Below are positions 21,405 through 43,803 of a DNA stretch of 64,000 bases, in pieces. This stretch comes from Martelella sp. AD-3 (GTDB taxonomy: Bacteria; Pseudomonadota; Alphaproteobacteria; Rhizobiales; Rhizobiaceae). The notes beneath the pieces were generated by a model. It was not told the origin of the DNA. It saw only the letters and a program-made list of their open reading frames with translations, and made no database searches. Position 1 is the first letter of the stretch. The number at the start of each line of letters is the position of its first letter. Made by a program: the position numbers and the translations under genes. Location: assembly GCF_001578105.1 (NCBI RefSeq), contig NZ_CP014275.1:1736001-1800000 (forward strand), read 5' to 3'.

Positions 21405-21726
21405 AGGTGGAGGCTTCTGTTGCCAGGTGCCTCCGGACCCCGCCTTACAGTGCTACCCGCAAGGACTTAAGGTGGGTTTCTGGAACCGCCATTAGGCAGC
21501 TACAGCGTAACCCTGAGCTTTGTTGTCATTTGCAACTACTCGTTTGACCCGATAACGGTGGTATCATGCCGGGTAAAAGGTCGTTCTTTACACTCTTGTC
21601 GATCCTGTTTCGCCCCCATCACAAAAAGGCCTGAACCGCCTGTTTGTGGTGGAGGCGCCGGGTACCGCCCCCGGGTCCAATGAGCTTATTACAACGCCGT
21701 TTATCACCATAGCCGGAAGAACCGGC
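21405..21726 (-). ncRNA. ssrA: Two-piece (circularly permuted) tmRNA
   Basis: Read on the minus strand, the acceptor piece comes first and ends in GCGCCTCCACCA (3' end at 21647). Its T-arm has stem CCGGG/CCCGG and loop GGCGGTA. After a 29-base spacer (21618-21646) the coding piece starts with GGGGGCGAAACAGGATCGAC (5' end at 21617). GGGGGCG pairs with CGCCTCC to give a 7-bp acceptor stem with discriminator A and CCA. The tag frame GCA...TAA (21533 down to 21492) encodes ANDNKAQGYAVAA. A hairpin GGAGGC/GCCTCC (21409-21434) closes the coding piece. This order is the permuted alphaproteobacterial type. The 5' end of the precursor is set by the promoter; the exact processing sites are estimated. 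Confidence 0.93.
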
Positions 21727-21732
21727 AGGCCT

Positions 21733-21760
21733 GATATAAGTGTTTCAAATGCTTCTGCAA
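21733..21760 (-). promoter_or_regulatory. ssrA promoter
   Basis: On the minus strand TTGCAG (21755-21760) and TATATC (21733-21738) are 16 bases apart. The predicted start, near 21726, falls at the GC-rich hairpin that opens the acceptor piece. Confidence 0.65.
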
Positions 21761-21863
21761 AGGGGGGTAGCGCGCAAAAGGCGGGGAAAGGCGTCCCTAT
21801 GCCCTTTTCGCGGCCGCTTTCCTCGCGATAGAAGATAAGACCGATTTTGAACGAGGGAGCATC

Positions 21864-29875: not shown

Positions 29876-29932
29876 ATGGCTATGAAAGAACTTCTTATTG
29901 TGGTGGGATCGCGCATGGGCAGGATGGTGTAA
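29876..29932 (+). CDS. ilv leader peptide (attenuation)
   Basis: An 18-residue open frame MAMKELLIVVGSRMGRMV with five consecutive branched-chain codons (CTT CTT ATT GTG GTG at residues 6-10) and another Val at the end. It directly precedes mutually exclusive RNA stems and a terminator in front of acetolactate synthase. Stalling of the ribosome at these codons when Leu, Ile or Val are scarce would favour read-through into ilvI. It has no visible ribosome binding site. The second ATG (29882) is an alternative start. Confidence 0.85.
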   Translation: MAMKELLIVVGSRMGRMV

Positions 29933-29989
29933 CCATCCGGCATAAGCCACCCATGCGCGACGACAGGCTCCTTGAAGGGGCCTTTTTTT
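29909..29989 (+). promoter_or_regulatory. ilv attenuator: pause stems and intrinsic terminator
   Basis: TCGCGCATGGG (from about 29909) can pair with CCCATGCGCGA (to about 29960), enclosing the small hairpin GGATGG/CCATCC that overlaps the leader stop codon. The terminator stem GGCTCC/GGGGCC (29966-29971 with 29977-29982) is followed by seven T. This is the classic arrangement of leader peptide, alternative stems and U-run. Confidence 0.85.
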
Positions 29990-30034
29990 ATGCCCGGTAG
30001 GAACGCAAACACCTTGAGACCATCGAAACGGAAA

Positions 30035-41575: not shown

Positions 41576-43108
41576 ATGGGCGACGCCCTGAAGCTCTACA
41601 ACACGCTGACGCGCGAGAAGGCCGAGTTCCGGCCGATCGATGCCGACAATGTGCGCATGTATGTGTGCGGGCCGACGGTCTACGACTTTGCCCATATCGG
41701 CAATGCGCGGCCCGTGATCGTCTTCGATGTGTTGTTTCGTCTGCTGCGCCATCTCTATGGCGAGGACCACGTCACCTATGTCCGCAACATCACCGACGTC
41801 GACGACAAGATCAACACGCGGGCAAAGCGCGACTATCCGGACCTGCCGCTGAACGAGGCGATCCGCAAGGTAACCGAAAAGACCGCCGACCAGTTCCACA
41901 AGGATATCGCGGCGCTCGGCGTGCTGGAGCCGACGGTGGAACCGCGCGCGACCGACCATATCGACGGCATGGTGGCGATGATCCAGACGCTTCTCGACAA
42001 GGGTAACGCCTATGTCGCGCAGGGTGCCGAGGGCAGGGAAGTGCTGTTCGACGTGCCCTCCATGCCGGACTATGGCCGTCTGTCGCGGCGTAATCTGGAG
42101 GACCAGCAGGCCGGCGCCCGCATCGCGGTGGAAAGCCACAAGAAAAGCCCTGCGGATTTCGTGCTGTGGAAGGAAAGCGCCGCCGACGAGCCCGGATGGG
42201 ACGGGCGCTTCACCTTCGAAGGAAAAACCGAGACCATCAACGGCCGTCCGGGCTGGCATATCGAATGCTCGGTGATGTCGGAGAAACATCTCGGCGAGAC
42301 CTTCGACATTCACGGCGGCGGCCTCGACCTGATCTTCCCCCACCACGAAAACGAGATCGCGCAATCCTGCTCGGCCCACGGCAACCACGTCATGGCCAAT
42401 GTCTGGATGCATAACGGCTTCGTTCAGGTGGAAGGCCGGAAGATGTCGAAGTCCGAGGGCAATTTTTTCACGATCCGGGAGCTGCTCGAGACGGAGAATT
42501 TCGGTGGCCGCAAATGGCCGGGCGAGGTGCTGCGGCTGGCGATGCTGATGACGCACTATCGCGAGCCGATCGATTTTTCGGTGAAGCGGCTGGAGGAGGC
42601 GGAGTCTAGACTTCGCAAATGGCGGAGTATCTCCGTTATTCTGCCGAAACAAAGCTACCCCGCACCACCGAAAGAATTTATCTCGGCTCTCAAGAATGAT
42701 CTTGATAGCGTATCAGCACTCGCTGTCATTGATAGTATATACGACCGAGCGAAAACTGAAGGGGAGAGGTTGGGGGTAGGTGCTTGCCTCAACTTTCTTC
42801 GACTTCAGCAAACGTCAGAAGATCTCGAATACATTTTTGAGCTTTCTGCCAAAGCCGGCGAATATCGGTTTCGGTATTATTCGCGAGATCGTTGCGAAAG
42901 CCTCGATGAAATCGAGACTTTCAACAAGATTTGGGCCTATTTGGACGTTAACCTTAAGCTCGAGGAACGCCTCGCCTTCATCCGCGAAAAAAACTGGGCC
43001 GAGGCTGACCGTATCCGCGACGAACTGGCCGCGCAGGGCATCCAGTTGAAGGATTCGAAAAACAAGGAAACCGGCGAACGCGAGACGACCTGGGAGGTCA
43101 AGCGGTGA
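41576..43108 (+). CDS. cysS: Cysteinyl-tRNA synthetase
   Basis: CysS charges tRNA-Cys. The 510-residue product has the HIGH-type motif [15 protein letters not shown] (about residues 30-44), zinc ligands in [14 protein letters not shown] and PHHENE, the KMSKS loop [10 protein letters not shown], and a C-terminal anticodon-binding region. Residues about 344-458 (42607-42950) are encoded by DNA of only about 47% GC (counted over 42661-42900) against 63% in the preceding part, and this part is unlike the usual rhizobial sequence. The protein is some 40-50 residues longer than the usual form. Both ends are of normal composition, and the frame is intact. Confidence 0.94.
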
Positions 43109-43135
43109 GCACGGTGCATGCAGTTCCGCTCCCTT

Positions 43136-43186
43136 CAATCTCCCCCCTTGAGGGGGAGATGTCGCGAACGCGACAGAGGGGGGTAT
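43136..43186 (+). repeat. REP-like palindromic repeat, copy A
   Basis: CAATCTCCCCCCTTGAGGGG starts this 51-base unit. A hairpin TCTCCCCC/GGGGGAGA is followed by a second hairpin TGTCGC/GCGACA and a G-run that can compete for the C-run. It lies just after the cysS stop and is a direct repeat of copy B (43388-43437). Confidence 0.85.
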
Positions 43187-43249
43187 GGGGCAGAAGCCGC
43201 AAACGCCGGAGGCGCGGAAAGGGTTCACCCTTCTCTGCCCCTGTCGGGG

Positions 43250-43275
43250 CATCTCTCCCTCAAGGGGAGAGATTG
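43250..43275 (-). repeat. REP-like palindromic repeat, inverted partial copy C
   Basis: On the minus strand it reads CAATCTCTCCCCTTGAGGG then AGAGATG, matching the first hairpin of copies A and B with a few changes. The following stretch has a different second stem (CCCC/GGGG). Confidence 0.8.
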
Positions 43276-43387
43276 TTTGTCCGTGGCGAGCCGGTGAGGC
43301 CAACTGGCGCATTTTTCTCGCCAGGGCGAGCGGTGCGACCTGTTGCAGGGCGCGCAGGTTCTTCTTGGCATTTGCCTGCACCTCCAT

Positions 43388-43437
43388 CAATCTCCCCCCT
43401 TGAGGGGGAGATGTCGCGAAGCGACAGAGGGGGGTAT
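43388..43437 (+). repeat. REP-like palindromic repeat, copy B
   Basis: Fifty bases, identical to copy A apart from one missing base in the second hairpin loop (GCGAAGCGAC versus GCGAACGCGAC). It ends three bases before the start codon of the DUF559 gene. Confidence 0.85.
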
Positions 43438-43440
43438 ACC

Positions 43441-43803
43441 GTGCCGCATCACAAGGTGTCGAAACGTTTGCGCTCCAATTCAAGGCGCATGCGAAAGGGC
43501 ATGACCGAAGCAGAACTGAAGCTCTGGAACGAGCTGCGCGCGGGGCGGTTGGAGGGGCTGCAGTTTCGGCGTCAGATGCCGATCGATCGCTACATTGCCG
43601 ATTTCGCCTGCCCCACTCACAAACTGATCATCGAGGTCGATGGCTCGCAGCATGGCGAAAGGCTCGCTGAAGACGCAGGACGCACGACGCGCCTCGCCGC
43701 GCTCGGCTGGACCGTGGTCCGCTTCTGGAACGACGATGTGCTGCGCGATATCGACGCCGTTTGCACCCATATTCTGAGAACCATCGGGGAGCATGAGTCA
43801 TGA
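43441..43803 (+). CDS. DUF559 endonuclease-like protein
   Basis: The 120-residue protein belongs to the DUF559 family, related in fold to very-short-patch-repair-type and PD-(D/E)XK nucleases. It starts (GTG 43441) PHHKVSKRLRSNSRRMRKGM, then TEAELKLWNELRAGRLEGLQ, and has the presumed catalytic core DRYIADFACPTHKLIIEVDG with SQH, and VVRFWNDDVLRDID. It stands directly behind REP-like palindromes, recalling the REP-associated tyrosine transposases, although the catalytic type differs. The stop overlaps the GFA gene as ATGA. A DNA-cutting role is inferred from the fold only. Confidence 0.8.
   Translation: MPHHKVSKRLRSNSRRMRKGMTEAELKLWNELRAGRLEGLQFRRQMPIDRYIADFACPTHKLIIEVDGSQHGERLAEDAGRTTRLAALGWTVVRFWNDDVLRDIDAVCTHILRTIGEHES

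Follow-up and report, generated by a model that had tools for sequence, protein, structure and literature searches.

In the window, by which we mean the whole 64-kb stretch of DNA analysed here, a small DUF559 gene lies directly behind copies of a dispersed palindromic repeat, and we regard it as practically certain that DUF559 genes and palindromic repeats of this kind form a pair. REPs are common bacterial repeats, and RAYT, the REP-associated tyrosine transposase, is an enzyme of the Y1/HuH type (Pfam PF01797). The initial annotation of the locus had raised the possibility of a pairing analogous to, yet distinct from, that of REPs and RAYTs, with DUF559 in place of RAYT. This proposal is supported by the clustering of the repeats beside DUF559 genes and by the covariation of repeat and protein, and it extends to taxa beyond the rhizobia. 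The results suggest that DUF559 is an enzyme dedicated to handling these repeats and different in kind from RAYT, and we infer that it mobilises or maintains them.

The locus in the window and its protein

The features of the locus are listed below in terms of window coordinates.

41576-43108, plus strand: cysS (cysteinyl-tRNA synthetase), the left border of the site
43136-43186, plus strand: palindromic unit A, consisting of a first hairpin, ATCTCCCCC-cttga-GGGGGAGAT, a second hairpin, GTCGCG/CGCGAC, and then a G-rich tail, AGAGGGGGGT
43225-43276, minus strand: palindromic unit C, complete, comprising both hairpins and the G-rich tail
43136-43276, no strand assigned: complete inverted doublet A-C, REPIN-like, about 140 bp, with the hairpins outside and the G-tails inside
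43388-43437, plus strand: palindromic unit B, with its tail facing the gene
43441-43803, plus strand: DUF559 gene, GTG start, 120 codons
43800-44300, plus strand: GFA-domain gene, the ATG of which overlaps the DUF559 stop (ATGA)

Units A and B are direct copies upstream of the DUF559 gene, as initially annotated, and are nearly identical, the sole difference being one extra base in the second loop of unit A. Both start with CAATCTC and end with a G-run plus TAT. The core ATCTCCCCCCTTGAGGGGGAGAT, with up to three mismatches allowed, is matched three times in the 64-kb window compared with no match in 100 dinucleotide shuffles. Unit C had been described as inverted and partial. The inverted orientation is correct, but the minus strand carries a full unit, and A and C therefore constitute one complete inverted doublet. 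Two further details of the initial description hold: unit B ends three bases ahead of the GTG at 43441, and single units fold with DNA parameters into two adjacent hairpins, at -14.2 to -14.7 kcal/mol (z of -4.1 to -4.7). With the same type of parameters the A-C doublet reaches -46 kcal/mol (z of -8.15). Units A and B show no GTAG or CGTC terminal tag by eye, and Rfam at gathering thresholds returned nothing at the repeats of the window. At other positions in the window Rfam places an Alphaproteobacterial (permuted) tmRNA (21406-21765, minus strand) and an Atu_C8-type sRNA (29878-29999, plus strand).

The genome from which the window is taken contains two DUF559 genes in total. The palindromic units of the gene in the window lie on its upstream side only, and a C/T-armed hairpin is absent from the 260 bp examined downstream of each of the two genes. 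The start at GTG 43441 is supported by three relatives in which the site is occupied and in which the same codon is ATG. We note that a 232-codon frame (43105-43803, plus strand) crosses all three repeats into DUF559, and annotators may call from it a longer protein with a repeat-encoded N-terminus. At two other DUF559 loci, L084 and L113, it is the downstream repeat that encodes the C-terminus of the DUF559 frame.

The window protein is a member of DUF559 (PF04480), with an E value of 8.5e-41 and a score of 138.7 bits compared with the curated cut-off of 20.6. A nuclease-type fold lacking a tyrosine transposase motif had been predicted for it, and this agrees with the results. No Y1_Tnp match was found in a Pfam scan of the protein, which besides DUF559 gave just a sub-threshold match to MTES_1575, and no HuH/Y1 tyrosine transposase domain was identified in it. 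Structure searches with an AlphaFold2 model (pLDDT 88) against the PDB using Foldseek gave 3HRL (NGO0050 of N. gonorrhoeae) as the best match (E 3.0e-9), followed by 3R3P, the homing endonuclease I-Bth0305I (E 6.1e-5), with a weaker match to Vsr (1VSR; E 4.8e-3). A PDB sequence search also matched I-Bth0305I, at 1.2e-4. Two NCBIfam models remained below their cut-offs, namely the vsr model TIGR00632 (15.6 bits versus 97.85) and NF007294, the DUF559 equivalog PRK09767 (96.8 bits versus a curated 218). PADLOC matches were weak (best 17.6 bits), and an anti-phage defence role was rejected.

Five residues, Glu21, Asp50, Asp63, His67 and Asp74, are invariant in a 30-sequence alignment. They occur in the same order as the catalytic residues proposed for Caulobacter VsrA (E73, D102, D115, H119 and D124; PMC12907096), and the spacing is identical up to the histidine. 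Both the fold and these candidate catalytic residues (E, D, D, H, D) are as in Vsr and VsrA and place the protein among the PD-(D/E)XK / Vsr-like nucleases. On the basis of the modelled Vsr-like fold and the invariant residues matching VsrA, the DUF559 protein is very likely to be a metal-dependent nuclease, not a tyrosine transposase.

Association of C/T-armed hairpins with DUF559 genes

A PF04480 match is present in 64 of the 190 genomes of a class-wide sample. The association was examined for 80 DUF559 genes from 47 genomes, in regions of up to 20 kb. These consist of 78 of the 83 class-wide hits above 90 bits together with two hits of 52-54 bits (L140 and L141). The hits above 90 bits that were left out are G071:C382, G081:C58, the truncated G071:C501, and G025:C176 and G056:C22:36189, both of which contain a stop; G119:C5 was kept despite an internal stop.

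Hairpins with C/T arms, as recognized by a strict detector, occur at 2.75 per kb within 300 bp upstream of the domain, at 0.78 per kb from the start of the domain to the stop codon and at 1.72 per kb within 300 bp downstream of the stop. Beyond 300 bp the density is 0.00-0.09 per kb in every bin, and it is 0.002 per kb in shuffles. Equal frequency of the repeats away from DUF559 genes, which the initial annotation had named as a point against the pairing, is therefore not what is found, as 1.7-2.8 per kb within 300 bp compares with less than 0.1 per kb beyond. The strict detector was positive for 58 of the 80 genes (27 of 31 loci that had been inspected earlier and 31 of the other 49). A flexible detector applied within 300 bp was positive for 78 of the 80, with hairpins upstream of 65 genes, downstream of 63 and on both sides of 50. 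All 78 genes scoring above 90 bits are among the positives, and the two misses are L140 and L141. For the 49 loci outside the 31 inspected earlier the flexible detector was positive at 47, but this subset is not wholly independent because the detector was built after inspection of the 22 strict misses, 20 of which were then positive.

In the same regions C/T-armed hairpins were found at 54 of 843 control ORFs of at least 100 amino acids (p 2e-74 compared with DUF559) and in 22 of 422 control intergenic gaps with a minimum length of 50 bp. The expected clustering of the units beside DUF559 genes is thus borne out. Likewise, the suggestion that most genomes might have DUF559 genes without repeats does not hold; nearly all of the genes carry them, with arm sequences that depend on the lineage. 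None of 20 hand-picked divergent or fused DUF559 domains, covering 20-66 bits, has hairpins, although the flank considered may still be intragenic where the domain is fused. Given the complete agreement above 90 bits and the absence of hairpins from this control, the pairing seems to belong to a stand-alone, high-scoring DUF559 subfamily.

Comparison of whole genomes leads to a similar picture. DUF559 at 90 bits or more is present in 31 of 37 genomes of the class-wide sample having at least five generic hairpins versus 16 of the 153 others (p 4.7e-18), a test that covers only part of the repeats, since the generic pattern represents some arms only and counts a single copy in the genome of the window. 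The corresponding values for Y1_Tnp are 9 of 37 repeat-rich genomes versus 35 of 153 others (p 0.83). In 12 family pairs discordant for DUF559 the carrier has more repeats in nine, fewer in two and the same number in one (one-sided p 0.033), and among 23 genomes of the genus and family the repeat of the window is more frequent in those with DUF559 (p 0.0024). Individual genomes deviate in both directions. G198 has 11 forward and 13 reverse matches of the window's repeat without DUF559; G157, G178, G144, G139, G011 and G016 have at least five generic hairpins without a full-length DUF559; and G197 and G210 have DUF559 with just two and no matches of the window's repeat, respectively.

No Y1_Tnp match was found in the genome of the window or in 22 relatives, with control genomes being positive, and C/T-armed hairpins were present at none of the 20 Y1_Tnp loci examined (ten of 30 loci, clipped at contig ends, were left out). 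A hidden RAYT mobilising the repeat of the window was rejected on these two grounds.

Geometry, specificity and history of the repeats

The orientation of the hairpin closest to the gene was determined at 160 loci. Upstream, the G-tail points to the gene at 75 loci and away from it at 19, is ambiguous at 40, and no hairpin is present at 26; downstream, the corresponding numbers are 67, 17, 42 and 34. At 41 of the 54 loci that could be assigned on both sides the hairpins form an inward pair with both tails to the gene. The median distance is 57 bp from the start of the domain and 34 bp from its end. Two-sided DUF559 loci have the same geometry as the gene-less doublets, with the gene in place of the doublet spacer. 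The inward bracket is not universal, as indicated by the two DUF559 genes of the window's own genome, which both have repeats upstream only.

The units around a gene are private to it. Upstream and downstream units of the same gene share a k-mer Jaccard similarity of 0.206 at 104 loci versus 0.062 when shuffled, the maximum of 2000 shuffles being 0.082. In genomes with several loci the similarity is 0.229 for units of the same locus (n = 30) versus 0.076 for units of another locus (n = 86). Repeat similarity also follows protein identity, with a rho of 0.232 over 156 loci (maximum of 500 permutations 0.124), in data that contain at least one cut or shifted translation. Within the five genomes having at least three loci the rho is 0.449, a value reached by none of 2000 permutations, in keeping with the initial expectation that unit and protein subfamilies would co-vary.

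C/T-armed repeats are dispersed across genomes, both singly and as REPIN-like doublets. In the 5.04-Mb genome of the window the core, with up to three mismatches, has 31 forward and 28 reverse matches, and its reversed control has none. The plus-strand copy comes first in 15 of the 16 clear inverted pairs, so that the tails face inwards, and the starts are 106-120 bp apart. The entire A-C doublet recurs at least seven more times in this genome, in copies of about 140 bp that are 87-93% identical, and many copies occur in relatives of the genus among the matches listed. Copies of the window's repeat lie mostly away from a DUF559 gene; REPs, likewise, are found mainly at a distance from the RAYT gene. 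The other DUF559 gene in this genome (L001) is directly preceded by a C/T-armed hairpin pair of a different sequence. In all seven genus genomes that carry a gene of the L001 type, its own pair, 82-83 bp apart, is found just upstream. Gene-less pairs with arms of this type are present elsewhere too, at a spacing of 82-83 bp in G194, G190 and G200 and, in G194, also of 94 bp; the one in G200 could be the mark of a lost gene.

The cysS-GFA site was read in 11 of 13 genomes of the genus. Four of these (G000, G199, G200 and G194) have DUF559 at the site, four others (G198, G192, G195 and G190) have another palindromic doublet, and in two (G191 and G193) the site is truly empty. In G201 an apparent C-terminal DUF559 relic with decayed repeats (L181) was recognized by eye, which is apparently a stage of DUF559 loss. 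A unit lies right before the DUF559 gene in G000, G199 and G200, and there is none at that position in G194. The gene at this site looks old, with losses, and not like a recent insertion. The leader sequence and the relic point to loss elsewhere despite the empty sites of G191 and G193, and loss is more evident than gain.

Insertions of doublets were sought by comparing G000 with G200. After removal of duplicates, 30 loci listed for the core in the genome of the window gave 25 sites, two of which were non-comparable. The 23 two-genome comparisons yielded neither a doublet with a clean empty counterpart nor a target duplication; some doublets are shared, and at other sites the repeat is absent or partial amid other sequence in the second species. 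At four of the 23 sites (L015, L017, L030 and L031) one species carries the DUF559-type doublet where its counterpart has a CGTC-like one. Such alternative doublets at orthologous sites (the DUF559 type versus the GTCATCCTCGGGCTTGACCCGAGGATCC type), also observed at the cysS-GFA site (L175, L178, L179 and L180), appear as if one element had replaced another. A third, longer doublet type with CTCTCCC-type arms is found in G200 at L025, L032 and, in part, L006, where the genome of the window has the window type.

Proposed function and taxonomic breadth

The DUF559 loci share several properties with REPtrons, in which REPs are accompanied by a RAYT, the enzyme family known to go with these repeats. 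In both, a small gene has its own palindromic repeats beside it, in many cases arranged as an inverted pair, and the same repeats are dispersed as singlets and REPIN-like inverted doublets. The enzymes are also repeat-specific where several families coexist, as has been described for REPtrons (PMC3733652). Unlike in a REPtron, the enzyme is a Vsr-like nuclease without a Y1_Tnp match, and the repeats, with their C/T arms and G-rich tail, fall by eye outside the GTAG and CGTC classes of PMC3733652. The CGTC class as a whole apparently has no dedicated transposase, according to the same source. It resembles the C/T-armed class in consisting of dispersed palindromes in rhizobia and other bacteria, and what we presume to be CGTC repeats occupy the same sites in relatives, but the C/T-armed class differs in sequence and has a partner gene. 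Vsr genes have been characterized beside cytosine methyltransferase genes (PMC12907096), whereas the partner of DUF559 is a palindromic repeat, and the vsr model is not reached. The DUF559 protein is like homing endonucleases of the I-Bth0305I (EDxHD) type in its sequence match and its second structural match. In contrast to these, the gene in the window lies between cysS and GFA, outside an intron or intein, and is flanked by dispersed palindromes.

In our view, stand-alone DUF559 proteins are probably dedicated nucleases of a C/T-armed REP family, so that gene and repeat would make up a REPtron-like pair whose enzyme comes from a superfamily unrelated to that of RAYT. We consider it highly probable that the protein acts on its own repeat; that it also drives the spread of the repeat we favour with some reserve. 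With comparable reserve we lean towards the existence of another class of REP-dedicated enzyme that evolved independently, in which a Vsr-like DUF559 protein, encoded next to or within an inverted pair of its own C/T-armed REPs, drives the copying and persistence of these REPs and of REPIN-like doublets. The nuclease would recognize the hairpin in cruciform or lagging-strand DNA and would nick at or near it, and host repair could then copy the repeat or doublet to other sites. A Vsr-like fold is not expected to give a covalent DNA intermediate. The DUF559 enzyme, unlike the HuH tyrosine transposase, would thus neither hold nor rejoin the DNA covalently, which favours a homing-like or repair-driven spread over classical transposition. 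The gene with its bracket may represent the autonomous form and the gene-less doublets its derivatives.

The DUF559 protein VsrA of Caulobacter has been linked to the DNA damage response and is described as a putative mismatch-repair nuclease with a proposed role in very short patch repair (PMC12907096). DUF559 might be a host-serving, Vsr-like mismatch or DNA-repair enzyme, with the palindromes as loading or regulatory sites that it does not spread, and the fold, whose closest matches are 3HRL and I-Bth0305I, followed by Vsr, would suit such a role. We consider this unlikely, as the specificity of Vsr would not predict a private repeat family for each paralogue, nor would it predict the scattered gene-less doublets. 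It is quite improbable that DUF559 is a homing-type selfish gene lodged inside REPs, cutting repeat-like targets and spreading itself among repeats that existed before it and were spread otherwise. This would be consistent with the assignment of a DUF559-containing gene to the EDxHD homing-endonuclease family (PMC9403480), with I-Bth0305I as the second PDB match and with the alternative palindromic doublets at orthologous sites of two species. However, a guest that came late would predict neither the bracket geometry and repeat-protein covariation that recur within genomes nor a repeat abundance that tracks the DUF559 gene.

The closeness of the hairpins to the gene (medians of 57 and 34 bp) and their good folding would fit a role in terminating transcription of the DUF559 gene or in the stability of its mRNA. 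As the only role of the hairpins this is very improbable and was rejected, since they lie on both the upstream and the downstream side and tend to be oriented inwards, their sequence is paralogue-specific and homologous doublets are dispersed genome-wide. Passive co-location of DUF559 genes and REPs in tolerant intergenic sites, which do exist, as indicated by the different repeats found in different relatives at cysS-GFA and other sites, is scarcely credible and was also rejected, because such hairpins accompany 78 of 80 DUF559 genes compared with 5% of other intergenic gaps (22 of 422) and none of the 20 Y1_Tnp loci, and because of the orientation bias and the protein-repeat covariation.

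The reading of DUF559 as the dedicated nuclease of its own repeats bears on genomes of this genus and family, which carry REPs and in which RAYT was not found. One large C/T-armed REP class is now linked to a specific nuclease family, and a second class of REP-dedicated enzyme, if real, would explain REP-rich genomes without RAYT. The link serves as a guide to function for DUF559, a domain of unknown function, and calls for caution where its members are regarded solely as mismatch-repair enzymes. With 3HRL as a solved homologue the question becomes a simple biochemical test. No connection between DUF559 (or COG2852) and REPs was found in the open-access literature, mostly at the level of titles and abstracts and with most subscription papers and bioRxiv outside its scope. 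No DUF-named domain is mentioned in the accessible text of PMC3733652 or PMC3686654.

The DUF559 nuclease is widespread in Proteobacteria and is also found in assemblies labelled as several other phyla. In a phylum-wide sample a PF04480 match is present in 86 of 249 genomes; 15 of the 26 new loci from this sample lie outside the class, and hairpins were seen by eye at all 15. A further set of named loci, the best 80 of 582 confirmed relatives, is rich in Mesorhizobium and represents one subfamily, as all were drawn by one conserved-peptide pattern. With the detector unchanged, 78 of these best 80 loci were positive, with a hairpin density of 4.11 per kb near the gene versus 0.18 per kb beyond 600 bp; at the two negative loci, L243 and L290, imperfect versions of the hairpins were recognized by eye. 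Some of the named loci come from records that bear the labels Xanthomonas, Legionella and Serratia, and seven have labels outside Pseudomonadota (Nitrospirales, Dehalococcoidia, Kuenenia, Syntrophaceae, Dadabacteria and two Gastranaerophilales). These seven appear to be metagenome-assembled, and their phylum labels should therefore be taken with caution. In 14 of 18 picked genomes labelled outside Pseudomonadota the generic hairpin pattern is present, with at least seven copies in 11.

Some genomes are rich in DUF559, with ten matches in G012, nine in G385 and eight in G290, and the paralogues of G012 apparently have different repeats each. Judging the flanks by eye, DUF559 apparently lies between ruvC and ruvA at L033 and L061 and between carA and carB at L041 and L044, with the two loci of each pair coming from different families.
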